NCBI RefSeq assembly: GCF_014203715.1
Contig: NZ_JACHJP010000001.1
Location: 1,280,432 to 1,344,431, forward strand
Origin: Streptosporangium saharense
GTDB taxonomy: Bacteria > Actinomycetota > Actinomycetes > Streptosporangiales > Streptosporangiaceae
Direction: 5' to 3'
Length of the DNA: 64,000 nt
Shown here: piece after piece, positions 28,232 through 40,633 of the stretch
Numbering within the stretch: position 1 is the first letter of the stretch
How the letters are laid out: every line of letters begins with the position of its first letter
The notes under the pieces: model-generated
The model's input: only the letters and a program-made list of their open reading frames with translations
Databases searched by the model: none
What the model was told of the DNA's origin: nothing
Program-made: the position numbers and the translations under genes

Positions 28232-29029
28232 TCAGCACAGGCGCAGCTCCATCGCCCAGCGCAGCGCCGCGGCGCGGGGAGAGAGGTCCCTCTCCCCGGG
28301 ATGGGAGGCCAGGTACTTCCGCTTGACCGCCTCAAGGTGGTCAGCGACGGTGCCCGGTCTGATCCCCAGCTCCCTGGCGGTCTCCTTCAGGCCGAGGCCC
28401 CGGCAGCCGACGACGGCGACCACGTCGAGCTCGCGGGGGGACAGGCGGTTGACCCTGCGGCGGCGGACGGTCAGGGCGAACGCCCCGGCGAGCGCGGCCT
28501 CAAGCGCGGCCTCGTCGGCCCCGGTCACGGCCAGGACCTCCTCGGGGCCGTCGCCCTCGGCCAGCGCGCGCAGCGCCGTACGTTGCAGGACCGACAGGTC
28601 GCCCGCGCCCAGCGGACGGGCCGTGGCGTCGTCGAGCAGGAGGGCGGCGAGCAGCGGGGAGACATGGTGACGGCCCGCGCCGACCAGGCCGACCGCGTGG
28701 ACGTACTCCGCGTGGGTGGTGAAGCGCTTCTCCACGTATCCCCAGGCCCCCGCGGCGATCACGTCGAGCACCTGGGTACGGCCGGCGACCCCGGAGGTGG
28801 CCACCACCCGCCAGCCCCTGGAGGCCAGGTAGGCGACGGCGTCGGCGCCGGAGCGGCCCTCGGGGAGCGAGCAGTCGCAGACGGCCACGCTCCCCGGACC
28901 GCCCTTCGGCAGGGACTCCACGGCGGTGACCGGTTCGAGCACCGTGTGCCCGGCACGGCGCAGGGCGTCGGCCAGGGGATAGGACACGATCGGGTGGTCG
29001 TCGACGATCCCGACCAGTCTTTCGCTCAC
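28232..29029 (-). CDS. NarL/FixJ-type response regulator
   Basis: A 265-residue regulator. The receiver has D10/D11, phospho-acceptor D52 (VAVCDCSLPEG) and K101, where the usual KP is KR. A middle segment (about 130-190) is longer than normal. The C-terminal LuxR helix-turn-helix reads LSPRELDVVAVVGCRGLGLK, then ETARELGIRPGTVADHLEAV. It overlaps the upstream histidine kinase gene by four bases. Confidence 0.87.
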   Translation of the reverse strand: MSERLVGIVDDHPIVSYPLADALRRAGHTVLEPVTAVESLPKGGPGSVAVCDCSLPEGRSGADAVAYLASRGWRVVATSGVAGRTQVLDVIAAGAWGYVEKRFTTHAEYVHAVGLVGAGRHHVSPLLAALLLDDATARPLGAGDLSVLQRTALRALAEGDGPEEVLAVTGADEAALEAALAGAFALTVRRRRVNRLSPRELDVVAVVGCRGLGLKETARELGIRPGTVADHLEAVKRKYLASHPGERDLSPRAAALRWAMELRLC

Positions 29030-30174
29030 TCCCGGCCCTCCGGCCAGCGCAGGACGACCTTGGTGCCGCCGCCGGGGGGACGTTCGATCGTCCAGCTCCC
29101 GCCGTGCCGTTCGACGGCGGCGAAACTGCGCGACATCCCGCCGCCCCGCCGTACCGGACCCTCGGGCAGGCCGCGGCCCCGGTCGCGCACGACGACCGTC
29201 ACGCCGTCGTCGGCCGCCGCCGCGTACAGGTGCACGCCCTTGGGCTCGCCCGCGTGCCTTGCCACGTTGTTCAGCGCCTCGCGGGCGGCGGAGGCGAGCA
29301 CCTCGCCGACCTCGGGGGGCGGATCGTGGTGGACGCGCAGCACGTGGGTGAGTTCGAGGCCCAGGTCGGCGGCGCTCTCGGCGACCTCGGCCATCAGGTC
29401 GGCGAACGCCGTCGCGTGCTCGTCGGTGATGAACCGCCTGGCCCGCTGGGCGGCCCTGCGGGCGGCGCGGGCGGTCGGCGGGTCGAGCGACGGGCTGCCC
29501 GCGACCCGTTCGACGATCGGCAGCAGGTCGTCGTGGATCGCCCGGTGGGCCGACTCGCGCTGGCGCATCGCTTCTTGACGTCGTTTGTACTCGGCGAGCA
29601 GCTCCTGGCGCTCCTCGGCGAGCCGCTGCGCCAGCACGGTCTGGCCCGCCAGGTCACGCAGCTCCCTGCCGATCAGCACCGCGATCAGGAACCACAGCGT
29701 GAAGCCCAGCAGGTCGGACACCAGCTTCTGGGTGAGGTTGGGGTAGATGGAGACCGTCCACGCCGCGGCCAGCACGGCCACCGAGGCCACGGCCCTGCGG
29801 CTCCAGCCGAAACCGAAGCCGAGCACCGCGGAGGTGGCGAGACAGAAGGGCAGCAGGGCCGTCAGGACGACGTTGCGCTCGTGGGGGAGGGCGGCCCGCG
29901 AGCCGACCGTCATCACGACCACGCTCACCAGGACGTCCGCCCAGACGAGCGCCGGGTCGTGCAGGGTGCCGCCGCGCCACGCCCTGACCGCGAACCACAC
30001 GGCCTCGACGGCCGCCAGGAGTGCCACGCAGACCGCCGCCCAGGGCAGGGCGAGCCGGTCCCAGGAGACCAGCGGGACCAGCAGGAACGCCGTCGTGCCC
30101 GCCCTGGAGTAGATGATCATCCTGGCCATGCGCCGTTCGGTGGCGGCCTGGACGTCGTGCCGGAGCAATTCCAC
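29026..30174 (-). CDS. Membrane histidine kinase (HisKA_3 type)
   Basis: A 382-residue kinase, partner of the NarL-type regulator. About five or six hydrophobic helices (30-175) form the sensor, with no large extracellular domain. A coiled-coil-like region (RQELLAEYKRRQEAMRQRES) leads to the phospho-acceptor in AHRAIHDDLLPIVERV, and the ATPase has an N box EALNNVARHAG and G1 RDRGRGLPEG. Such kinases often sense membrane state or small hydrophobic signals; the actual signal is unknown. Confidence 0.87.
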   Translation of the reverse strand: MELLRHDVQAATERRMARMIIYSRAGTTAFLLVPLVSWDRLALPWAAVCVALLAAVEAVWFAVRAWRGGTLHDPALVWADVLVSVVVMTVGSRAALPHERNVVLTALLPFCLATSAVLGFGFGWSRRAVASVAVLAAAWTVSIYPNLTQKLVSDLLGFTLWFLIAVLIGRELRDLAGQTVLAQRLAEERQELLAEYKRRQEAMRQRESAHRAIHDDLLPIVERVAGSPSLDPPTARAARRAAQRARRFITDEHATAFADLMAEVAESAADLGLELTHVLRVHHDPPPEVGEVLASAAREALNNVARHAGEPKGVHLYAAAADDGVTVVVRDRGRGLPEGPVRRGGGMSRSFAAVERHGGSWTIERPPGGGTKVVLRWPEGRE

Positions 30175-30633: not shown

Positions 30634-32157
30634 TCACTTCTTGCAGATGTTCTCCGTCGCGGTCCTGGCTTCGGGGAGGTCGCTCGCCGTGGGACTCGCG
30701 GACGGGGTCGCCGAGGGAGTCGTGACGGTGACCTTCTTGACCCCGGGGTAGCGCTGTCCGACGACCACCTCGATCCGGTCGCCGAGATCCTCGACCTCGC
30801 GGAGCTCCACCCCCGGCAGCGCGGCGGCCAGGGTGCGCGCGGAGTCCTCGCGGCCGGGGCCGTACCGGACGAGGGTCTTGTCGTGGTCGCGCTCGCGCGT
30901 GTCACCGGCGGGCTGGGGGACCAGGAAGCCCGCCCTGAGCAGGTCGTTCCTGGTGCGCGCGCCCAGGCCCCTGATGAGGGTGCCGTTGAGCACCCTGACG
31001 GCGATCCGCGACGGCGGCACGGTCAGCGGCGTCGCCGACGGCTTCGCGGACGGGGTGTTCGAGGGGCTCGCGGACGGCGTGGCGGACGGGCTGGCCGTCG
31101 GCTTGGCGGGCTTGGTGAGCGGGTCGTCGGCGGCGATCCTTCGGAACAGCTCGGCCGCCGCCTCCTTGTCCCACAGCACGGCGGACTCGCCGGTCGGCGT
31201 CTTGTAGTCGACGTTGGCGAGCGGGACCGTCGCGAAGGAGACGTCGTCGGTCGAGACGTTCTTGAGCTGGTCGGCCAGGCCGAGCAGGTCCTTGCGGAGC
31301 GCGTCGTCCACGCTGAGCGTGCCGAGGGTGCTGTTGACGAACGCGCTGAGCTTGACCGGGTTGGCCAGCGTGCCGCCGCTCAGCGCCCGCTGCAGCAGGG
31401 CCGAGATGACCTGCTGCTGACGGTCGATGCGGTCGAGGTCGGAGCGGGCGGTTGCCCGGGTGCGGGCGTAGGACAGCGCCTTGGTGCCGTCGAGGGAGTA
31501 GTTGCCCGCGTCGAGCTTGAGCCCGGTCTTCGGGTCGTCGATGGCGACGGGGGTGCAGACGTCAACGCCGCCCAGAGAGTCGACGACCTGGATGAAGCCC
31601 AGCACGTTGACCTCGACGTAGTGGTTGATGGTCAGTCCGGTGGCGTTCTGCACGGTCCGCACGGCCAGCTTCGGGCCGCCGAGCTGGTAGGCCGCGTTGA
31701 TCTTGTGCGGGCCCTGGCCGGGGATCGTCGTCCAGGTGTCGCGGGGAAGGCTGACCACGGTGACGCGGGTGTGGTCCTCCGACAGGTGCAGGACCATCAT
31801 CGTGTCGGTGCGCTGCCCGCTCTCCCGGCCCAGCTTGAGCTGGTTCTGCTGCTTGCGGCTGAGGTTGTCGCGCTTGTCCACGCCGACGACCAGGATGTTC
31901 ATCGCCCCGGTGGACTGCGAGCCCGGCACCCCCGCGTCGACCGACTTGATCTGGCTGCCCACGTAGTTGGTGAACGCCCAGGTCGTCCCCGAGGCGCCGA
32001 GCACCAGGAAGGAGAGCGCGCCCGCCAGGACCAGTCCGCGCCGCCGCGACCGGGCACCCCGGGCGGACCTGCGCTCACGCCGGGGGGCGACCCGGACCTT
32101 GCCGTAGGCGTCGCCGCCCACCCGCACCCCCGAGTCCTCTTCTCCCGACTCGCGCAT
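30634..32157 (-). CDS. LytR-CpsA-Psr (LCP) family glycopolymer transferase
   Basis: A 507-residue membrane-anchored enzyme. A basic cytoplasmic tail, one helix (GLVLAGALSFLVLGASGTTW), and the extracellular LCP domain follow, with MNILVVGVDKRDN, SLPRDTW, the INAAYQLGG segment, and the Arg-containing SYARTRATARSDLDRI. A Pro/Ser/Ala/Thr linker leads to a C-terminal LytR_C domain (VRVLNGTLIRGLG onward). LCP enzymes transfer lipid-linked glycopolymers to peptidoglycan or arabinogalactan. It lies head-to-head with a glycosyltransferase and beside the CDP-alcohol genes, so it may ligate their product. Confidence 0.92.
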   Translation of the reverse strand: MRESGEEDSGVRVGGDAYGKVRVAPRRERRSARGARSRRRGLVLAGALSFLVLGASGTTWAFTNYVGSQIKSVDAGVPGSQSTGAMNILVVGVDKRDNLSRKQQNQLKLGRESGQRTDTMMVLHLSEDHTRVTVVSLPRDTWTTIPGQGPHKINAAYQLGGPKLAVRTVQNATGLTINHYVEVNVLGFIQVVDSLGGVDVCTPVAIDDPKTGLKLDAGNYSLDGTKALSYARTRATARSDLDRIDRQQQVISALLQRALSGGTLANPVKLSAFVNSTLGTLSVDDALRKDLLGLADQLKNVSTDDVSFATVPLANVDYKTPTGESAVLWDKEAAAELFRRIAADDPLTKPAKPTASPSATPSASPSNTPSAKPSATPLTVPPSRIAVRVLNGTLIRGLGARTRNDLLRAGFLVPQPAGDTRERDHDKTLVRYGPGREDSARTLAAALPGVELREVEDLGDRIEVVVGQRYPGVKKVTVTTPSATPSASPTASDLPEARTATENICKK

Positions 32158-32209
32158 GCGTCGCCCCCTAGGCTTGCTGGGTCGATGAGGTACCCGTCCG
32201 TACAGTAGC

Positions 32210-33247
32210 GTGAGCGACGCCATGAAGCAGTTCCCCGACTCGCCCGCGCCGGCGTCGTCTCCCGAGACACGCGTCTGGCCCCCCATCTCCATCGTCATCC
32301 CGGTGCTGAACGAGGAGCGCCATCTGCGGGAGGCGGTGCGTCAGGTCCTGTCGCAGCGTTACGACGGCCCGATCGAGGTCGTGCTCGCGATCGGACCCTC
32401 CAAGGACCGCACCCAGGAGGTCGCGGACGCGATAGCCGCGGAGGACCCGCGGGTGGTCGTGGTCCCCAACCCGACGGGCCGCACCCCCAACGCCCTCAAC
32501 GCCGCCATCGCCGCCTCGCGCAACGGCATCGTCGCCCGGGTGGACGGCCACGCCATGCTGCCCGAGGACTACCTCAAGGTCGCGGTCGAGACCCTTGAGG
32601 AGACCGGGGCCGACAACGTCGGCGGTGTCATGGCGGCCGAGGGCGTCACGCCCTTCGAGCAGGCCGTCGCCCGCGCCATGACCTCCAAGATCGGCGTCGG
32701 CGGGGCGAGGTTCCACACCGGCGGAACCGCCGGGCCCGCGGACACGGTCTACCTCGGGGTCTTCCGCAGGGAGGCGCTCGAACGCGTCGGCGGCTACGAC
32801 GAGCACTTCCAGCGGGCGCAGGACTGGGAGATGAACCACCGCATCCGCGAGACGGGCGGCCTGGTGTGGTTCCAGCCCAGGATGCGCGTCTCCTACCGGC
32901 CGAGACCGTCCATCAAGGCGCTGGCCAAGCAGTACTTCCACTACGGCCGCTGGCGCAGGGTGGTCGCCCGCACCCACGAGGGCACCATCAACATGCGCTA
33001 TCTGGCGCCGCCCGCCGCGGTGCTGGCCATCGTCCTCGGCCTGGTCGTCTCGCCGTTCTTCTGGCCCGGCCTGCTGCTGCCCGGTGGCTATCTCGCGGCG
33101 ATCCTCGCCGGGTCCGCGCTCACCGGCAGCGGACTGCCGGCCTCCGTCCTGCTCAGGCTGCCGCTGGTCTACACGACCATGCACATGTCGTGGGGCTGGG
33201 GCTTCCTGACGAGCCCGCGCAGGCTGGCCAAGCCGCCCAAGGGCTGA
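32210..33247 (+). CDS. Family 2 glycosyltransferase (ExoA-like)
   Basis: A 345-residue membrane-associated glycosyltransferase. The GT-A domain starts SIVIPVLNEERHL; the metal motif is in ARVDGHAML; the ED/W acceptor region is RAQDWEMNHRIRE. C-terminal helices (about 262-325) anchor it. It resembles succinoglycan ExoA-type enzymes acting on polyprenyl-linked acceptors. The GTG start is 52 bp from the divergent LCP start, so the two share a regulatory region. Confidence 0.9.
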   Translation: MSDAMKQFPDSPAPASSPETRVWPPISIVIPVLNEERHLREAVRQVLSQRYDGPIEVVLAIGPSKDRTQEVADAIAAEDPRVVVVPNPTGRTPNALNAAIAASRNGIVARVDGHAMLPEDYLKVAVETLEETGADNVGGVMAAEGVTPFEQAVARAMTSKIGVGGARFHTGGTAGPADTVYLGVFRREALERVGGYDEHFQRAQDWEMNHRIRETGGLVWFQPRMRVSYRPRPSIKALAKQYFHYGRWRRVVARTHEGTINMRYLAPPAAVLAIVLGLVVSPFFWPGLLLPGGYLAAILAGSALTGSGLPASVLLRLPLVYTTMHMSWGWGFLTSPRRLAKPPKG

Positions 33248-33251
33248 GCCC

Positions 33252-34541
33252 TCAGGTTCCGGTACGGCCCGTGCGCACGGTGGTCACCCGGCCGCCCGGC
33301 CCGGAGACGAGGACGTCGAGCGCGGCGCGGGCGACGTCCTCCCGCGAGGGGGCCGGTCCCTCGGGCTCGGGGACCAGACAGCTGACGCGCACCCCGTCGG
33401 CCGCCCACTCCTCGGCCAGCGCCTGGGTCAGCGCGACCACTGTCGCCCGCTGCACGGAGCGCAGCGTGCCGTACGGCGAGGCGGTGTGGAACAGCAGGTG
33501 ACCCCGGCTTTCGCGGAGGTACGGCAGGGCGGCCCTGGCGACGTTGACTGGACCGAGCTGGGCTTCCGCGAGCACGGCGCCGTCGGTCTCGTCCAGGGTG
33601 CCGGTTGGCGGTGGTTCGGCCGCGTTCACGACGTAGTCGACGCCGCCGCTCTCCTTGGCGGCGTGGGCCAGGGCGTCCTCCACCCGGGCCGCGGTCGTGG
33701 GGAAGGAGAACACCACGGCGCCGTGCCGCTCCGCCAGCTCCGCCACCGCCGCGCCTTCGCCGAAGACCACCATCGTCCTGCCGCGCAGGGCCCGGCCGTA
33801 CGCGGCGAGCTGGAACAGGCGCTCGGCGATGAACACGTCAACCGGGTGGGTGACCTTCATGTTGTGCTCGCTGCCCGGCACGACGTGGACCGGCACCTCC
33901 GGCAGGTAGCGCAGCACGACGCCGCAGTCGTCGGTCGGCGGCCGGTCGGCGAAGCCGGGGTCGGCGAACGCCCGCTCGTAGGCCTCCCGGATCACCGAGA
34001 GGCGGAACCCCTGCGGGGTCTGCACGCGCCGCAGCGCCGCCCTGTTGGGCACCTCGCGGACGACCTCCCCGTCCGGCCTCCGCTCGACGACCACGATCGT
34101 GTCGGAGGTGGGGATCGCGACCTCAACGGCCCGGTGGGTCCGCAGCGCCTCGACACACCCGGTGATGATGCCCGGTTCGAGCAGCGGCCGTACGGCGTCG
34201 TGCAGCAGCACGTCGCACTCGCGCCCCTCTAAGGCTTGCAACGCCCGCCAGGTGGTCTCGGTACGGCTGGCGCCGCCCTCGATGACCGCGCTGACCTTCG
34301 TGAACCCCCCGGCGGCGACGAGGCGCTCCACGTCCTCGGTGTAGCCCGGCGTCATCAGCACGAGGATCTCGTCGATCTCCGGCGCGTCCTGGAACACGGT
34401 CAGCGTGTGCTCGATGATCGTCCTGCCCGCGATCTCGACGAGCTGCTTGGGGGTGTCGAGCCCGACCCGCCTGCCGACCCCGCCGGCCAGGAGGACCCCG
34501 ACGGTGTGCGGGCGTGGTTCAAGAGCGGTCAAGGTCTGCAT
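33252..34541 (-). CDS. IspD/TarI-like cytidylyltransferase fused to a degenerate SDR domain
   Basis: A 429-residue two-domain protein. Residues 12-240 form an IspD-type CTP transferase with LLAGGVGRRVGLDTPKQ (CTP loop), HDAVRP, TPQGF and DDCGVV. Residues 255-420 align with a short-chain dehydrogenase of the kind fused or linked to ribitol-5-phosphate cytidylyltransferases (Bcs1/TarI-TarJ type). The SDR active site is lost: where family members have YSASK the sequence is RSVQR, so R361 and R365 replace catalytic Tyr and Lys, and the NAD loop is also altered. The neighbourhood of CDP-alcohol phosphotransferases suggests it makes a CDP-polyol rather than acting in isoprenoid synthesis. Confidence 0.82.
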   Translation of the reverse strand: MQTLTALEPRPHTVGVLLAGGVGRRVGLDTPKQLVEIAGRTIIEHTLTVFQDAPEIDEILVLMTPGYTEDVERLVAAGGFTKVSAVIEGGASRTETTWRALQALEGRECDVLLHDAVRPLLEPGIITGCVEALRTHRAVEVAIPTSDTIVVVERRPDGEVVREVPNRAALRRVQTPQGFRLSVIREAYERAFADPGFADRPPTDDCGVVLRYLPEVPVHVVPGSEHNMKVTHPVDVFIAERLFQLAAYGRALRGRTMVVFGEGAAVAELAERHGAVVFSFPTTAARVEDALAHAAKESGGVDYVVNAAEPPPTGTLDETDGAVLAEAQLGPVNVARAALPYLRESRGHLLFHTASPYGTLRSVQRATVVALTQALAEEWAADGVRVSCLVPEPEGPAPSREDVARAALDVLVSGPGGRVTTVRTGRTGT

Positions 34542-34687
34542 CCTCCAACGGTCTGGATACGGCGAGCGTAACGGCTGGCCGTCCGATCCCGGGTCGCGGT
34601 CCCGTGCTACGCGGTCAAGATCTCGCTACGCTAAGTGGGCACTCCCCGATTCGTACGGCGAAGCCGTCGGATACGAAGGAGCTCCTC

Positions 34688-36292
34688 TTGCCCGATCCCG
34701 ATGCCTCCGTCCCCTCGGAGGTTCCCCCGGACGACCCCTCCGGTGGCTCCTTCAACGACCCCGCGCCCGCGCCGAGGACGGCCACCGTCGTGCTCGCCAC
34801 GACGGACGCCGCCCGCCTGCGCGGCAGGAGCGGCACCCTGCTCGACCGGCTGACCGGCCAGCTCGCCGGGCTGTCCACCGGGGACGTGCACGTGGTCACC
34901 CGGTCGAGCGACGTCATCCACGCCCCCGGCGGCGCCTACATGATCGGCTCGGAGGGCTCGGGCGGCCTGGCGGACGACCTGCGCAGGGTCGCGGGCGTCG
35001 CCCGTACGGCCACCGGCCCGGTCGCGGTGCTCGCCGGGAACCTCGTGGCCCACACCGAGGCGCTGGCGCTGCTGCTCGAACGCCCAGGACGTGACACCGG
35101 CGCCCTGGTCGCCAAGGACGAGGCGAACCCGCCCGTCAGGATCGACAGGGGGCTGGTCACGTCGGCGGGGACCTCCTTCCACGACGTCGAGGGGCCCAAC
35201 GGCTCCTTCCGCGGCGCCTTCCAGGTCGGTGCCGACGACCTGCTTGCCTTGGCGGCGACCGCCGAGACGCTGGCCGACCTCGCCGAGGTCGGCAGGTTCG
35301 GCGCGATGGACGGCGCCGAGGCGGGCGAACTGCTGCTGTCCGGCCTGCTGCGCTCCGGCGTCGCCGTACGGGCCGTCGGGCTCGGGCGGCTGCGCTGCGA
35401 CCGGGTGACGACGCAGGAGGAGGCGGACACGGCCCTGCGGCGCCTCGGCGAGGTGGACGAGTCCGACGCCCGGCTGGACGCGGCGATCAAGTCCGACGAC
35501 GGCTTCTTCGCCACCTTCTTCGTCAGCTCGTGGTCCAGGCACGTGGTCAGGGTCGCCGCCATGCTCGGCCTGCGGCCCAACGCGGTCACCGGTGTCTCGG
35601 TCGGCCTGGCCGTACTGGCCGCCGTCTGGTTCTCCGCGGGCACCAGGCCCGCGCTGGTCACCGGGGCCGTGCTGGTGTACCTGTCGTTCGTGCTCGACTG
35701 CGTCGACGGTCAGCTCGCCCGCTACACCCGGCAGTTCTCGCCGCTCGGCGCCTGGCTCGACGCCACCTTCGACCGGGTCAAGGAGTACGTCGTCTACGTG
35801 GGGCTGGCCCTGGGCTACGCGGGGGAGGGCGTCTGGCCGCTGGCCGTCGGGGTGCTGATCCTGCAGACGCTGCGGCACACCGTCGACTTCTCCTACGCGG
35901 GCGCCAGGGTGGACGCCGAACGGGCGGGCCACGCCTGGGCCGGGGTCGCGGGCTCGCTGACCGCCAGGAGCGACGTGGCCGTCGCCGCGGAGGCCCCCCG
36001 GCGCCGGGGCCGCGAGCCGTACGGGCCGGTGACTCCACCCGCGCAGGCGCCCGCGCGGCAGGGCGGGCAGGGCAACTGGGTCGTACGGCTCTCGCGCCGT
36101 CTTGAGCGGGACTCCCCGACCCGCTGGCTGAAGAAGATCATCGTGCTGCCGATCGGGGAGCGGATGGCGCTGATCGCGGTGACCGCTGCCTTCTTCGACG
36201 CGCGGGTGACGTTCCTCGCGCTGCTGACCTGGGGGTCGGTCGCCCTGCTCTACACACTTTCCGGTCGGGTCGCCAGGTCGTTGAGCCGGTGA
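34688..36292 (+). CDS. CDP-alcohol phosphotransferase with N-terminal nucleotidyltransferase-like domain
   Basis: A 534-residue protein. Residues 31-265 resemble a degenerate nucleotidyltransferase (VVLATTDAARLRGRSGTLL, PVAVLAGNLVAHTEAL), then FFATFFVSSWSRHVVR leads into a CDP-alcohol phosphotransferase domain (about 285-500) with the full catalytic motif: D337, D340, G341, A344, R345, G354, D358, D362. The same fusion order occurs in the CTP:inositol-1-phosphate cytidylyltransferase/DIPP synthase enzymes of archaea and thermophiles. Here the N-domain lacks the GxGxRL..PK signature. The TTG at 34688 is preferred because AAGGAG lies five bases upstream and an earlier GTG (34514) would run into the divergent gene. 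Confidence 0.82.
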   Translation: MPDPDASVPSEVPPDDPSGGSFNDPAPAPRTATVVLATTDAARLRGRSGTLLDRLTGQLAGLSTGDVHVVTRSSDVIHAPGGAYMIGSEGSGGLADDLRRVAGVARTATGPVAVLAGNLVAHTEALALLLERPGRDTGALVAKDEANPPVRIDRGLVTSAGTSFHDVEGPNGSFRGAFQVGADDLLALAATAETLADLAEVGRFGAMDGAEAGELLLSGLLRSGVAVRAVGLGRLRCDRVTTQEEADTALRRLGEVDESDARLDAAIKSDDGFFATFFVSSWSRHVVRVAAMLGLRPNAVTGVSVGLAVLAAVWFSAGTRPALVTGAVLVYLSFVLDCVDGQLARYTRQFSPLGAWLDATFDRVKEYVVYVGLALGYAGEGVWPLAVGVLILQTLRHTVDFSYAGARVDAERAGHAWAGVAGSLTARSDVAVAAEAPRRRGREPYGPVTPPAQAPARQGGQGNWVVRLSRRLERDSPTRWLKKIIVLPIGERMALIAVTAAFFDARVTFLALLTWGSVALLYTLSGRVARSLSR

Positions 36293-36302
36293 GAGGGGGA
36301 TC

Positions 36303-36926
36303 ATGGTCACCGTCCACATGACGCCGGTGCCGCGCGGCAACGTGGTCGCCTACCGCGACGACGGGGTGCTGTCGCGGGCGATGGGCGCACTGGTCGTCGG
36401 GCAGTTGCCGCCGCTGCCGCCCGTGCTGGTCGGCACGTTCGTGACCGGGGTGCTGCTGCTGGTCGGGGTCGCGGGCACCGACGGGCTGGCCGTGCTGGCC
36501 CCCGCCGTGGCGCTGCTGCTCGCGGGGCCCGGCAGCTCCCACCCGCACGACGGCCGCCTCGACTGGCTGGTGCCGCCGATCCTGCGCCTGACGGAGTACG
36601 GCTTCGTGGCCTCCGTGGGGTTCGCCCACGACGTGCCGCCCTGGTTGATCTTCACCTTGCTCGGCGCGATGGCGTTCCACCACTATGATCTTGTCTACCG
36701 CCTGCGGCAGCGCGTCTATCCGCCGCAGTGGCTGGCGACCTTCGGGCTCGGCTGGGATGGCCGGATGCTGCTGGTCGCGCTCGGTGGGTTCACCGGGCAG
36801 GTCACGCTGGTCTTCGCCCTTCTGGCGCTGTACCTGTGGGGGCTGTTCGGGTGGGAGAGCCTCACCTGCTGGCTGGCCGTACCCCGTGCCGGGGCGGACG
36901 CGGTCGACCTGGAGGCGCACGATTGA
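36303..36926 (+). CDS. Membrane protein (DUF5941-like) after CDP-alcohol phosphotransferase
   Basis: A 207-residue protein with about five hydrophobic helices. It opens with polar VAYRDDGVLSRAMGAL and carries conserved-looking polar patches (HPHDGRLDWLVPPILRLTEYG, HHYDLVYRLRQ). It resembles what I know as DUF5941, a domain found with or fused to actinobacterial CDP-alcohol phosphotransferases; that label is from memory. It starts 10 bases after the preceding gene behind GAGAGGGG, so the two are co-expressed and may form one membrane complex. Confidence 0.7.
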   Translation: MVTVHMTPVPRGNVVAYRDDGVLSRAMGALVVGQLPPLPPVLVGTFVTGVLLLVGVAGTDGLAVLAPAVALLLAGPGSSHPHDGRLDWLVPPILRLTEYGFVASVGFAHDVPPWLIFTLLGAMAFHHYDLVYRLRQRVYPPQWLATFGLGWDGRMLLVALGGFTGQVTLVFALLALYLWGLFGWESLTCWLAVPRAGADAVDLEAHD

Positions 36927-37029
36927 GAACACCCGGCAAACCTCCGATTACACGATCAAGGCCTGAAGGCAACTAACCTTTGGGACCAGGAGTGCCCGTC
37001 GAGGGGCTCACTTGGATGAGGAGTGCACG

Positions 37030-37764
37030 TTGCTGGGAATGGTGCTGGCCGCCGGGGCCGGACGACGCCTGCGGCCGTACACCGACACGCTGCCCAAGGC
37101 GCTCGTGCCGGTTGACGGTGACACCACGATCATGGACATCTCGCTGCGGAACCTCGCCGCCGCCGACCTCCGTGACGTCGTGGTCGTCGTCGGATACCAG
37201 GCGCAGGCCGTACACGAGCGCAAGGCCGAGCTGGAGCGGCGGCACGGTGTGAAGCTCACCCTCGTGCACAACGACAAGGCCGAGGAGTGGAACAACGCCT
37301 ACTCCCTGTGGTGCGCCCGCGACCACTTCGACCAGGGGGTCCTCCTGGTCAACGGTGACACCGTGCACCCGGCCTCCGTCGAGGAGACGCTGCTGTCGGC
37401 GCCCGTGACCAGTGACATCCTGCTCGCGGTCGACAACGTCAAGAAGCTCGCCGACGAGGAGATGAAGGTCACCCTCGACGACGACGGCCACCTGAAGCTG
37501 ATCACGAAGCTGATGGACCCGGCCGGTGCCGCCGGTGAGTACATCGGCGCGACGCTGATCCGCCCCGGTGCCGCCGAGCGCCTCGCCGACGCCCTCAGGG
37601 CCACCTTCGAGCGCGACCCGCAGCTGTACTACGAGGACGGCTACCAGGAGCTGGTCACCCGCGGCGAGAAGATCGCCGTCGCCCCGATCGGGGACGTCCC
37701 ATGGGTCGAGGTGGACAACCACGACGACCTCGCCAAGGCGCGGGAGATCGCGTGCCGATACTAG
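37030..37764 (+). CDS. Sugar/alcohol-phosphate nucleotidyltransferase (LicC/IPCT-like)
   Basis: A 244-residue NTP transferase with intact GMVLAAGAGRRLRPYTDTLPKALVPV signature spread over residues 3-28, a metal-binding NGDTVHP and VEVDNHDDL near the end. Length and pattern fit CTP:phosphocholine and CTP:inositol-1-phosphate cytidylyltransferases. The TTG at 37030 is chosen because GAGGAG lies six bases upstream; a TTG at 37012 is possible. Its end overlaps the dehydrogenase gene by 13 bases. It probably supplies the CDP-alcohol used by one of the adjacent phosphotransferases. Confidence 0.85.
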   Translation: MLGMVLAAGAGRRLRPYTDTLPKALVPVDGDTTIMDISLRNLAAADLRDVVVVVGYQAQAVHERKAELERRHGVKLTLVHNDKAEEWNNAYSLWCARDHFDQGVLLVNGDTVHPASVEETLLSAPVTSDILLAVDNVKKLADEEMKVTLDDDGHLKLITKLMDPAGAAGEYIGATLIRPGAAERLADALRATFERDPQLYYEDGYQELVTRGEKIAVAPIGDVPWVEVDNHDDLAKAREIACRY

Positions 37765-38810
37765 CCAGGATGCTCCCCGTCCCCCTGACCATGGAGGTAC
37801 GGCGGGGCGCGGTCGCCCAGCTCGGCACGCTGCTGGCCGACAGCAGGGTGGCGACCTCGGGGCGGGTCGCGGTGGCCGTCGGGGCGGGACAGGGTGACCG
37901 GATCGCCTCGGTCATCGCCCCCTCGCTCGGTGAGGCCCGGGTCTTCCGGGTGGCGGACGGTTCCGTCGACGCGGCGGTCTCGCTCGGCGCCGACCTGCGC
38001 AAGGGCGCCTACGAGGCGCTGGTCGGCATCGGCGGGGGCAAGACGATCGACGCGACCAAGTACGCCGCGTCGCTCGCCGGGATCCCCATGGTCGCGGTGG
38101 CCACCAACCTGTCGCACGACGGCATCTGCTCGCCGGTCGCCTCGCTGACCCACGACGGCGGCAAGGGCTCCTTCGGGGTGCCCATGCCGCTGGCCATCGT
38201 GGTCGATCTCGACTTCGTGCACGACGCGCCCGCCTCCCTGGTCCGCTCCGGGGTCGGCGACGTGGTGAGCAACCTGTCGGCGATCGAGGACTGGCAGCTC
38301 GGCAACGCCGAGCGGGGTGAGCCGATCGACGGCGTGGCCTGCGCGATGGCCCGCACCGCGGCCGAGGCGGTGATCGGCAGGACCGACTCCATCGAGTCCG
38401 ACGCCTTCCTGACCGTGCTGGCCGAGGCGCTCATCCTGTCGGGGATGTCGATGGTCATCGCCGGGTCATCCCGTCCTTCGAGTGGCGGAGACCATGAGAT
38501 CCTGCATGCCGTGGATCAGCTTTTCCCCGGCACCTCCAACCACGGCGAGCTCGCCGGGATCGGTGCGGCTTTCTGCTTCTTCCTCCGCGAGGACTCGCGG
38601 AGACTCAACCAGGTCGTCGAGTGTCTGCGCGGGCACGAGCTTCCGGTCACCCCCGGCGACGCCGGACTGACCGAGGAGCAGTTCACCGAGGCCGTCATGC
38701 TGGCGCCCTCGACCCGCCCAGGGCGCTACACGATCCTGGAACACCTGCGCCTTTCGGAGCCGGAGATTCGCGAGCGGGTGAGGGACTATGGCCGGGCCGT
38801 CGGTCGCTGA
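37752..38810 (+). CDS. sn-Glycerol-1-phosphate dehydrogenase-like protein (AraM/EgsA family)
   Basis: A 352-residue iron-type alcohol dehydrogenase fold protein of the G1PDH group. The NAD loop GIGGGKTID lies at 92-100. The metal-ligand set is D170 (GVGD), H248 in SSGGDHEILHAVD, and H264 in SNHGELAGIG, the pattern that separates AraM/EgsA from ordinary glycerol dehydrogenases. The known reaction is reduction of dihydroxyacetone phosphate to sn-glycerol-1-phosphate. It is coupled by overlaps to the nucleotidyltransferase upstream and the CDP-alcohol phosphotransferase downstream. Start GTG 37752 has GGGAG upstream. Related enzymes acting on other keto-sugar phosphates cannot be excluded. Confidence 0.85.
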   Translation: MPILARMLPVPLTMEVRRGAVAQLGTLLADSRVATSGRVAVAVGAGQGDRIASVIAPSLGEARVFRVADGSVDAAVSLGADLRKGAYEALVGIGGGKTIDATKYAASLAGIPMVAVATNLSHDGICSPVASLTHDGGKGSFGVPMPLAIVVDLDFVHDAPASLVRSGVGDVVSNLSAIEDWQLGNAERGEPIDGVACAMARTAAEAVIGRTDSIESDAFLTVLAEALILSGMSMVIAGSSRPSSGGDHEILHAVDQLFPGTSNHGELAGIGAAFCFFLREDSRRLNQVVECLRGHELPVTPGDAGLTEEQFTEAVMLAPSTRPGRYTILEHLRLSEPEIRERVRDYGRAVGR

Positions 38811-39555
38811 GTTCCGCGCGGTCGCCCAGCCGCAGTCGACCATGGGCCGTAACAGCGGCGAGCACTGGGCCGGTTCGCTGTACATGCGCAAGCTGTCGAT
38901 CTACGTCACCTGGTTCCTCGCCAAGACGCCGATCACCCCCAACCAGACCACCTGGCTGATGATCCTGACCGGGCTGCTGGCGGGCGTGGTGCTCACGGTG
39001 CCCGGGTTCTGGGCCGCGGTCGTCGCCGCCCTGCTCGTCCAGCTCTACCTGCTGCTCGACTGTTCCGACGGGGAGCTGGCCAGGTGGACGGGCCATACCT
39101 CGATCACCGGCGTCTACCTGGACCGGGTCGGCCACTACTTCGCCGAGGCCGCCCTGCTCATCGGGCTGGGCTTCAGAGCCTCAGAGGTCCTGCCGGACTG
39201 GTACACGGTGCTGGGCTTCGCCGCGGCGCTCGGCGCCATCCTGATCAAGGCGGAGACCGACCTGGTGGACGTGGCTCGGGCCCGCTCGGGCCTGGTCGCG
39301 GCGACGGAGAGCTCGGCGGAGCAGTTCCGGTCGCGGGGCCTGGGCCTGGCCCGCAGGGCCGCGGCGGCGCTGAAGTTCCACCGGCTCGTGCAGGCGGTCG
39401 AGCTATCCCTGATCGTGGTGCTCGCGGCGCTGTGGGACGCCCTCAGTGGCGGTCTGGCCGCGACGCGGGTGCTCATGGTCGCCTGCGTGGTGGTCGCCGT
39501 GCTGCAGACGGCGCTGCACCTGGTGAGCATTCTGGCCTCCAGGCGGCTTTCGTGA
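38788..39555 (+). CDS. CDP-alcohol phosphotransferase with D-to-H change in the catalytic motif
   Basis: A 255-residue membrane enzyme with about six helices. The CDP-alcohol motif is D91-C-S-D94-G95-E-L-A98-R99, then G108 and D112 at exact spacing, but the fourth acidic position (normally Asp, the catalytic base) is H116 in LDRVGHYFAE. The N-terminal HWAGSLYMRKLSIYVTWFLA-like helix and TPITPNQTT are typical. It overlaps the G1PDH-like gene by 23 bases. It should join a CDP-activated polyol to an acceptor alcohol in the membrane, if the His can serve. Confidence 0.87.
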   Translation: MAGPSVAEFRAVAQPQSTMGRNSGEHWAGSLYMRKLSIYVTWFLAKTPITPNQTTWLMILTGLLAGVVLTVPGFWAAVVAALLVQLYLLLDCSDGELARWTGHTSITGVYLDRVGHYFAEAALLIGLGFRASEVLPDWYTVLGFAAALGAILIKAETDLVDVARARSGLVAATESSAEQFRSRGLGLARRAAAALKFHRLVQAVELSLIVVLAALWDALSGGLAATRVLMVACVVVAVLQTALHLVSILASRRLS

Positions 39556-39721
39556 GGAACCGGATAACGTTTCGGCGCGTCGTAGGTGCGGACATCCCGC
39601 TGTTTGGTGGGTGTTCGCCAGAGGTTCCGATACGCTTATTTCCCGGTAAATCAGGAAGTTGTACTGAAGCCAGCATTGCCCCACCCAGCAGACTCGGTGA
39701 TCATGAAAGTATGCCCCGCAC

Positions 39722-40633
39722 GTGCTCTCGACGCGTCAAGGCGATGACGCGTTGAAGATCTCGTGCGTCATCCTCACCATGGGCAACCGGGTCCCCGAGC
39801 TGGCCCGGGCCGTCGAGTCGGCCCTGAACCAGGTCGACGGCGATGTCGAGATCGTCATCGTCGGCAACGGCGCGGACGTGCCCGAGCTGCCGATCGCCGT
39901 GCCCGCGGGATCGGCGGCCTCGATCAGGACCGTCCGGCTCAGCCACAACACCGGCATCCCGGCGGGCCGCAACCGCGGCGTCGAGGAGTGCTCGGGCGAC
40001 GTGGTCCTCTTCCTGGACGACGACGGCTGGTACGGCGAGACCAACGTGGTCTCCCACCTGCGCGAGCGCTTCTCGACCGAGCCCGACCTGGCGGTCGTCT
40101 CCTTCCGCGTGATGGACCCCGAGGGCGGCGTCGGGCAGCGCCGCCACGTCCCGCGTCTGCGCGCGGGTGACCCCGAGCGGTCCTCCCCGGTCACCACCTT
40201 CCTCGGTGGCGCCTGCGCCATCCGCCGCTCCGCCTTCCTCCAGGTCGGCGGCCTCCCCGAGCGTTTCTTCTACGCCCACGAGGAGACCGACCTGGCCTGG
40301 CGGCTGCTGGGTGAGGGCTACCGCATCGAGTACGACGCGCAGACGGTCATGTACCACCCGCAGGTCCCGCCGACCCGGCACGCGGACTTCTACCGTCTCA
40401 ACGCCAGGAACCGCGTCTGGCTGGCCCGGCGCAACCTCCCCTGGCCGCTGGCGGGGTTCTACCTCCTCAACTGGATCGTTCTCACCCTGCTCAGGGAGCG
40501 TTCCCGTCAGGCGCTGCGCGCCTGGTTCACCGGCTTCACCGAGGGAGTGCGCGAGCCCGCGGGCGAACGCCGCCCGATGGGCTGGAAGACCGCCTGGCGC
40601 ATGCTCCGCCTCGGCCGCCCCCCGATCGTCTGA
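39722..40633 (+). CDS. Family 2 glycosyltransferase
   Basis: A 303-residue GT2 enzyme: SCVILTMGNRVPELARAVES opening, the metal motif FLDDDGWYG, GGACAIRRSAF, and the acceptor motif HEETDLAWRLLGEGYR. One C-terminal hydrophobic stretch (LAGFYLLNWIVLTLL) suggests membrane association. It resembles rhamnosyl/galactosyl transferases of cell-wall polymers. It follows the CDP-alcohol genes after 166 AT-richer bases that should hold a promoter. The start is GTG 39722 or TTG 39752; neither has a good ribosome site. Confidence 0.88.
   Translation: MLSTRQGDDALKISCVILTMGNRVPELARAVESALNQVDGDVEIVIVGNGADVPELPIAVPAGSAASIRTVRLSHNTGIPAGRNRGVEECSGDVVLFLDDDGWYGETNVVSHLRERFSTEPDLAVVSFRVMDPEGGVGQRRHVPRLRAGDPERSSPVTTFLGGACAIRRSAFLQVGGLPERFFYAHEETDLAWRLLGEGYRIEYDAQTVMYHPQVPPTRHADFYRLNARNRVWLARRNLPWPLAGFYLLNWIVLTLLRERSRQALRAWFTGFTEGVREPAGERRPMGWKTAWRMLRLGRPPIV

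Follow-up and report, generated by a model that had tools for sequence, protein, structure and literature searches.

A conserved nine-gene block

The window analysed here is a 64,000-nucleotide stretch of the Streptosporangium saharense genome (contig NZ_JACHJP010000001.1, positions 1,280,432 to 1,344,431), an assembly of 8.5 Mb in 26 contigs that is 99.98% complete. It holds a block of nine genes in which a dehydrogenase of the sn-glycerol-1-phosphate (G1P) type adjoins a nucleotidyltransferase, CDP-alcohol phosphotransferases, glycosyltransferases and an LCP ligase, a set that may supply CDP-glycerol for a wall polymer. The labels NT, G1PDH, CDPOH1, CDPOH2, GT2a and GT2b were coined for this analysis.

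At the upstream end, an LCP-family glycopolymer transferase with a LytR_C domain, a wall-polymer ligase (30634-32298, minus strand; PF03816, 2.6e-48; PF13399; TIGR00350 above its cutoff), is followed on the plus strand by the GT2 glycosyltransferase GT2a (32210-33247; PF00535, 3.2e-24). An IspD-type cytidylyltransferase fused to a decayed short-chain dehydrogenase/reductase (SDR) domain lies on the minus strand (33252-34541; PF01128, 2.5e-48), and the six remaining genes are on the plus strand. These encode CDPOH1, with a nucleotidyltransferase-like and a CDP-alcohol phosphotransferase domain (34514-36292; PF01066, 2.4e-11); a DUF5941 membrane protein (36303-36926; PF19365, 7.8e-26); NT, a nucleotidyltransferase resembling LicC and inositol-1-phosphate cytidylyltransferase (37012-37764; PF00483, 2.9e-14); G1PDH, of the EgsA/AraM family (37752-38810, in an open frame from 37701; PF13685, 1.1e-29); the membrane CDP-alcohol phosphotransferase CDPOH2 (38788-39555; PF01066, 7.3e-6), which shares 96% identity with its Streptosporangium carneum counterpart; and a second GT2 glycosyltransferase, GT2b (39722-40633; PF00535, 2.3e-18). 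The genes show the high third-position G+C typical of coding sequence; they are real, and their classes are backed by Pfam and NCBIfam. All the genes named in a preliminary description made from the sequence alone are thus present where it had placed them, and the overlap it reported among NT, G1PDH and CDPOH2 was found as well. The G1PDH start is probably the GTG at 37752 rather than 37701, because the 13-nucleotide overlap with NT then equals that of the annotated Streptomyces locus. The start of NT may lie a few codons downstream of 37012, and that of CDPOH1, which is modelled confidently from about residue 85-90, is uncertain.

Related loci were taken as the 80 best matches listed from a contig scan with the single protein CDPOH2 as query, a sample skewed to close kin. 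The full set of nine occurs in 72 of the 80, the LCP gene and GT2a in 73 each and GT2b in all. The incomplete loci (L052, L053, L057, L104, L110, L112, L113 and L114) lack one to seven genes; contig ends explain some of them, and L112, L113 and L114 are distant metagenome-assembled genomes without G1PDH. Flanking open reading frames scored at the same line were seldom found: downstream, the next frame ("LLM") in none of the 80 loci, an aldo-keto reductase in one, an MFS protein in none and an ABC protein in five; upstream, a kinase-like frame adjoining the LCP gene in none, at a position barely within the 10-kb flank. These flank labels were assigned here without a domain scan. Gene order is therefore conserved well above chance, and the block runs from 30634 to 40633, taking in the upstream LCP gene and GT2a. 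Near the LCP gene, response-regulator-like and histidine-kinase-like frames occupy 28232-30174 (labelled by reading, without a domain scan); the former is unusable as a flank control, its position lying almost wholly beyond the compared stretches.

Across 246 genomes of the class, CDPOH2 was detected in 81 and G1PDH in 60 (E<=1e-25), with both in 53. The two genes are less than 100 bp apart in 47 of these 53 and within 5 kb in 50, the exceptions being G072, G099 and G194; seven genomes have G1PDH without a CDPOH2 match. In the 100 nearest genomes, the window's own included, CDPOH2 matches occur in 77 at E<=1e-3, a line that admits paralogues too, and G1PDH in 64 at E<=1e-20. We retrieved two sets of 20 regions from relatives and ran domain scans on selected neighbours. 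Two of these regions (L157 and L158, from G171 and G268) keep the NT-G1PDH pair, with a divergent CDP-alcohol phosphotransferase next to it in L157. The trio of NT, G1PDH and CDPOH2, for which the preliminary description had proposed a neighbourhood search, is thus conserved together.

Dehydrogenase and nucleotidyltransferase

The top NCBIfam model for G1PDH is the NAD(P)-dependent glycerol-1-phosphate dehydrogenase (NF002022, 1e-70), and the protein scores over the cutoff of Pfam PF13685. Among solved structures its best match is 3ce9, named "Glycerol dehydrogenase", followed by the G1P dehydrogenases 4rgq/4rfl and 5fb3, with other glycerol dehydrogenases far behind. Residues D187, H265 and H281 (numbered from 37701) align with the Asp, His and His of 4rgq, which we take to be the metal ligands in this family. 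We consider it very probable that the enzyme produces G1P.

The best solved relatives of NT include LicC, PntC and the Thermotoga maritima inositol-1-phosphate cytidylyltransferase (4jd0), and from these relatives we infer that it belongs to COG1213. Residues R19, K29 and D116 are invariant in 21 sequences and align with the Arg, the Lys and the Asp of the GD motif of 4jd0, so both NT and G1PDH retain the putative catalytic or metal-binding residues of their own families. R16, K26 and D112 have been named as critical (PMC12275187); the first two fit the NT/4jd0 alignment on the assumption of an 8-residue tag on the 4jd0 chain, and the number D112 was not matched. The TagD model TIGR01518 was not among the best 25 of the 29 families listed for NT. 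We propose that NT is a CTP:sn-glycerol-1-phosphate cytidylyltransferase, with CDP-glycerol as its likely product. NT and G1PDH are both expected to be soluble.

CDP-alcohol phosphotransferases

CDP-alcohol phosphotransferases carry the motif DxxDGxxAR(x8)GxxxDxxxD, in which the fourth Asp is the catalytic base. The motif is complete in CDPOH1 (D395, D398, G399, A402, R403, G412, D416 and D420, invariant in 21 of 21 sequences). The AlphaFold model of CDPOH1 (mean pLDDT 71) matches first 4mnd, an IPCT-DIPPS enzyme (E 4e-13), and about 330 N-terminal residues adopt a predicted nucleotidyltransferase fold that has lost the glycine-rich signature loop. The predicted architecture is thus of the IPCT-DIPPS type with a degenerate nucleotidyltransferase half; by NCBIfam, CDPOH1 also resembles archaetidylinositol-phosphate and phosphatidylinositol-phosphate synthases.

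Profile comparisons of the CDPOH1 N-terminus with NT (probability 0.4%) and of DUF5941 with CDPOH1 (probability 0.1%) used shallow alignments whose statistics are unusable, and both folds were then assigned from the predicted models, which are of modest confidence. For DUF5941 (mean pLDDT 68), a Foldseek search of the PDB returned CDP-alcohol phosphotransferases at all of ranks 1-6 (probability 0.87-0.98, TM-score 0.51-0.55, E 0.27-1.9). The protein lacks most of the phosphotransferase motif, and in the Streptomyces locus L118 it forms the C-terminal part of the CDPOH1 protein. With moderate confidence, and as a lead, we regard DUF5941 as a degenerate CDP-alcohol phosphotransferase partner of CDPOH1; no mention of it was found in the full-text papers searched.

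In CDPOH2, motif residues D91, D94, G95, A98, R99, G108 and D112 are invariant in 24 aligned sequences. Its best NCBIfam model is IPCT-DIPPS, and AF2299 is also a relative. It is a reasonable candidate, at somewhat better than even odds, for the user of CDP-glycerol.

Links to wall-polymer genes

Three lines favour CDP-glycerol as the product: linkage to a TarF-like polymerase, an apparent exchange with TagD, and the content of the window's own genome. In L161, from genome G144, which has no CDPOH2 match, the NT-G1PDH pair shares a collinear run with three further genes: one the size of a permease gene, unscanned; one for a TagH-like ATPase that scores 171-191 bits, under the cutoffs; and one for a 945-residue protein that joins a GT2 domain to PF04464 (2e-100). 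This last protein scores 257 bits with TarF and 96 with the ribitol polymerase TarL, both below the curated cutoffs.

In L153 (G291), a TagD gene above its curated cutoff (204.8 versus 165.4 bits) shares a same-strand run with GalE, CDPOH2, GT2b and a TarS-linker glycosyltransferase. No homologue of NT or G1PDH was detected in this 17-kb stretch, and G291 has no G1PDH at E<=1e-25; TagD, the classical source of CDP-glycerol, thus fills, beside CDPOH2, the place that NT and G1PDH hold elsewhere. Within the class sample, a TagD-like match (E<=1e-30) occurs in 18 genomes and G1PDH in 60, with both in none (hypergeometric 0.005, ignoring descent).

The window's genome carries three strong PF04464 genes (307.7, 277.1 and 291 bits with the Pfam model) and one weak match, and the three are nearer to TarF (209, 187 and 218 bits) than to TarL (85, 72 and 80 bits). 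The same genome yielded no TagD match (TIGR01518, E<=1e-15), no second IspD-SDR protein and no match to PcrB/GGGPS (PF01884), a model that was positive in 7 of 14 control genomes. It may hold a second surface-polymer locus elsewhere (L168, 5143-12056), where a GT2-TarF-like gene has a further CDP-alcohol phosphotransferase and a sulfotransferase nearby.

Export genes are also found nearby in relatives. Next to the Streptomyces core (L118) are genes for an ABC permease and for a TagH-like ATPase, and ABC export genes stand beside the core in L122, L129, L130, L132, L133, L139 and L140 as well, in addition to the ATPase of L161. The TagH models, run on the L118 and L161 ATPases only, are the best hits of both, below cutoff. 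Because GT2 and LCP genes lie in the block, ABC export genes nearby, and TarF and TagD genes are linked to its parts, a wall polymer is the likely destination of the product. The preliminary description had offered a lipid head group or a wall polymer; the TagGH-like and TarF-like linkage in relatives favours the latter over the former.

The IspD-type gene

The preliminary description had also counted the IspD-like cytidylyltransferase (33252-34541) as part of the CDP-alcohol pathway, which is not supported for this species. The gene is the only full-length PF01128 match in the genome, next to two partial ones (47 and 29 bits); the single ispF gene of the genome is the direct neighbour of carD, and no ispD separates the two. 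Exactly one IspD homologue (E<=1e-20) was found in 53 of the 61 genomes of the family, two in seven and none in G031, which is 89% complete. Four family genomes among the 100 relatives have no G1PDH match; three of these (G017, G033 and G046) keep an IspD with 51-57% identity to that of the window, and the fourth, G031, shows neither gene.

The hallmarks of SDR enzymes are a cofactor motif and YxxxK. These motifs are eroded in the window protein and in others, and intact in 41 of the 75 locus copies. The frame of 13 listed loci stops near the end of the IspD domain (252-285 residues versus 429), with the IspD half kept. In a tree of 50 rows, 17 carD/ispF-linked IspDs of other families form one group (support 98/94), and the window and locus IspDs group with IspD-SDR proteins of the ribitol type (98/89); a long-branched second copy from G025 is unplaced. 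The gene is probably the cell's CDP-methylerythritol synthase, not a polymer enzyme. The simplest account is that a ribitol-type wall cytidylyltransferase took over the isoprenoid IspD step and that the reductase half afterwards decayed more than once, an account drawn from presence and absence, with ispF as the only other isoprenoid gene checked. If so, an essential enzyme, IspD, would have been displaced by a wall-type one throughout a family, a notable event. The Streptosporangiaceae seem to be without a carD-linked ispD, relying on the ribitol-type (TarI-like) enzyme (L141, 3291-4270; L171-L190), whose SDR half has decayed or disappeared in many species.

A proposed route and its alternatives

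We propose that G1PDH would convert dihydroxyacetone phosphate to G1P and that NT would then use CTP to form CDP-(1)-glycerol from it, a mirror image of what TagD makes. CDPOH2, in the membrane, would then transfer phosphoglycerol from CDP-glycerol to a polyprenol-linked glycan that the GT2 enzymes have made, a step that would prime or decorate the glycan as TagB does. TarF-type polymerases encoded elsewhere in the genome may extend the polymer, its export may fall to transporters of the TagGH type, which lie beside the block in several lineages, and the LCP protein would ligate it to peptidoglycan. CDPOH1 would be a second phosphotransferase, with DUF5941 as its catalytically degenerate partner, and the IspD-like enzyme would chiefly serve isoprenoid synthesis by the methylerythritol phosphate (MEP) pathway. 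What the data show directly is gene content, conservation, linkage swaps and motifs; every substrate, the stereochemistry and the polymer assigned here are inferred from them. On balance we lean slightly towards this overall route, in which NT and G1PDH would make CDP-glycerol from G1P in place of TagD for a wall polymer. The grades given above to the dehydrogenase, to the NT product, to CDPOH2 and to the wall destination are judgements that depend on one another. The reading given in the preliminary description is supported in part: its CDP-alcohol unit with a G1PDH-family enzyme is conserved and linked to LCP and GT2 genes, and in relatives to TagGH-like and TarF-like genes as well.

Several observations weigh against the route. 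The G1PDH score with NF002022 (238 bits) is under the cutoff of 413, and the COG1213 enzyme CpgD, which makes CDP-glycerate, yielded no product from glycerol-1-phosphate (PMC12275187). The fourth motif Asp is missing from 23 of the 24 aligned CDPOH2 sequences: the position is His in 20, including the window copy, Ala in three (two Streptomyces and one Nonomuraea) and Asp only in the divergent copy of L157. Despite this change CDPOH2 scores over the PF01066 cutoff, and 23 of the 24 have a Glu or Asp one turn further on. Of the 81 class genomes with CDPOH2, moreover, 28 have no G1PDH match. Ribitol-type IspD-SDR genes lie near CDPOH2 in L122, L123, L152, L155 and L156; weakly scoring PF04464 genes (30-34 bits) also adjoin in L123 and L156, and the L155 neighbour gave no such match. 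L142-L150 have CDPOH2 with GT2a or GT2b, often with LCP or CDPOH1 and never with G1PDH, and several of them carry a distant (about 30%) NT homologue. Since CDPOH2 adjoins IspD-SDR or a distant NT in the examined loci without G1PDH, its donor probably differs by lineage.

The wall-polymer links have limits of their own. The TarF link and the TagD link come from one genome each, and the three TarF genes of the window's genome are not near the block. No TagGH gene was seen in the block (the genome at large was not searched for one), and for the ABC permease next to the Streptomyces core the best-scoring model is that of a galactan exporter. The exclusion between TagD and G1PDH carries little weight: a single family (f28) accounts for 14 of the 18 TagD genomes, the 1e-30 line was drawn after a gap was seen in the match list, and one TagD match only of the class sample passes the curated cutoff. 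At E<=1e-15 there are 34 genomes with a TagD-model match; six of them are G1PDH genomes, in which this match scores 62.8-65.8 bits, far under the 165-bit cutoff. One member of f28, G306, combines NT and G1PDH and lacks a TagD match.

In another family of the class, f16 (L122, L123, L155 and L156), the neighbours of CDPOH2 include ABC export genes and an IspD-SDR gene, whose SDR motifs are intact in L122 and L123. This setting suggests that a ribitol-type donor can serve CDPOH2. In G099, NT, G1PDH and CDPOH1 stand together on a contig other than that of CDPOH2.

The dehydrogenase and NT might instead act on another pair of ketose phosphate and alcohol phosphate, yielding some other CDP-alditol in place of CDP-glycerol, likewise destined for a wall or surface glycan. 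The substrates of COG1213 enzymes are diverse, among them phosphosugars, phosphocholine, phosphoglutamine and phosphoglycerate (PMC12275187), and the low NCBIfam equivalog score of G1PDH, the name of its top structural hit and the ribitol-type neighbours of CDPOH2 in the five loci named above fit such a pair. However, the next structural hits are G1P dehydrogenases with the same putative metal ligands, the best context of NT-G1PDH is a TarF-like polymerase and its swap partner is TagD, so that we consider a different alditol unlikely. A lipid use of G1P, as an archaeal-type ether lipid or as a phosphoglycerol head group made by CDPOH1 or CDPOH2, is less probable again. It draws on the family membership of G1PDH, on the fate of G1P in Bacillus subtilis as heptaprenylglyceryl phosphate (PMC5059525), on the likeness of CDPOH1 to the two inositol-phosphate lipid synthases, and on the Streptomyces fungicidicus locus (L118, 14396-30197), where the core and its ABC exporter pair lie directly 5' of a hopanoid cluster (hpnC, hpnD, hpnE, shc, hpnH, ispG and dxs). 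The regular neighbours of the core are GT2, LCP or ABC-export genes, however, and none of the nine block genes encodes a prenyltransferase; the lack of a PcrB/GGGPS match in the genome disfavours the ether lipid in particular.

The matches of CDPOH1 (by its model) and CDPOH2 (by NCBIfam) to IPCT-DIPPS would fit a soluble phosphodiester solute of the di-inositol phosphate or diglycerol phosphate type, but CDPOH1 has lost the signature loop of its nucleotidyltransferase half, and the links to LCP, GT2, ABC-export, TarF and TagD genes have no obvious role in making a solute; we hold this to be improbable. Most doubtful is a single pathway for the whole set in which the IspD-SDR fusion would provide CDP-ribitol. 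The relatives with intact SDR motifs would be in keeping with it, as would the weak PF04464 matches (24-34 bits, cutoff 22.1) that adjoin IspD-SDR in L123, L126, L136 and L156. In the window species we reject the fusion as a CDP-ribitol supplier: its SDR half has decayed, the genome has no other full-length IspD, carD and ispF are adjacent, and the truncated locus copies keep just the IspD half. A phosphonate use of the trio was considered too, PntC being a sequence relative of NT.

Relation to known systems

Textbooks separate archaeal from other membranes by the use of G1P or of sn-glycerol-3-phosphate. The wall teichoic acid (WTA) branch with TagD/TarD, TagB/TagF and TagGH shares with the route proposed here CDP-glycerol, a TarF-like PF04464 polymerase, export and LCP ligation. 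It differs in using sn-3 glycerol phosphate, whereas the block would use the sn-1 form from G1PDH; in its cytidylyltransferase, NT being of the LicC/COG1213 type, a family unrelated to TagD (PMC12275187); and in TagB, in whose place stands CDPOH2, a membrane CDP-alcohol phosphotransferase. The dehydrogenase shares family and putative metal ligands with EgsA/AraM enzymes, while its gene, unlike theirs, adjoins those for a cytidylyltransferase and a CDP-alcohol phosphotransferase in a genome without a detected PcrB/GGGPS. NT shares its family with LicC, inositol-1-phosphate cytidylyltransferase, PntC and CpgD, and its R19, K29 and D116 match 4jd0, but no member of COG1213 that makes CDP-glycerol was reported in the literature found. 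CDPOH1 has the two-domain architecture of IPCT-DIPPS/AF2299 and CDPOH2 the membrane domain; the degenerate nucleotidyltransferase half of the former, the missing fourth Asp of the latter and the wall-polymer context of both set them apart.

A 2026 survey (PMC13118837) describes a syntenic region of Streptomyces with a nucleotidyltransferase, a CDP-alcohol phosphotransferase, GT2, tagG, tagH and araM, the same kinds of gene as in S. fungicidicus, and links it to teichoic acid by synteny. By its gene names this region is very likely the orthologous core. The survey is therefore prior art for the association with teichoic acid, and the view that the product had not been described stands only in that the available text of the survey holds no biochemical proposal: the pathway, the enantiomer, the replacement of TagD and the IspD point were not found in it, so it is not prior art for the pathway. 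A CDP-glycerol route starting from G1P was not found in the full-text literature searched, from which most subscription papers are absent, nor was anything usable on the wall polymers of Streptosporangium or Nonomuraea. Papers on umbrella toxins (PMC13274773) and CglA (PMC11481543) name other wall loci of Streptomyces.

A described role of bacterial G1PDH is in the Bacillus lipid heptaprenylglyceryl phosphate (PMC5059525). Wall-polymer use, if true, would explain why G1PDH is retained in these actinomycetes and why three TarF-like polymerases are found in a genome without a detectable TagD, and it would be a new route to teichoic-acid building blocks. We put forward more tentatively, at somewhat less than even odds, a wider reading in which many actinomycetes (Streptosporangiaceae, Streptomyces and others) make a wall glycerol-phosphate polymer from G1P via CDP-(1)-glycerol, with G1PDH and a COG1213 enzyme replacing TagD. 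Their WTA would be the mirror image of that of Bacillus, a widespread use of G1P by bacteria outside lipids, and in one family the ribitol-type wall cytidylyltransferase would have taken over the IspD step. In Bacillus, wall teichoic acid is sn-3 and lipoteichoic acid sn-1, and GlpQ, which is specific for sn-3, reads this handedness (PMC7086022); wall polymers of opposite handedness would have consequences for such enzymes. In favour of the route, a TagF-like polymerase, Cps7D, builds polymer from Gro1P in vitro (PMC8262930).

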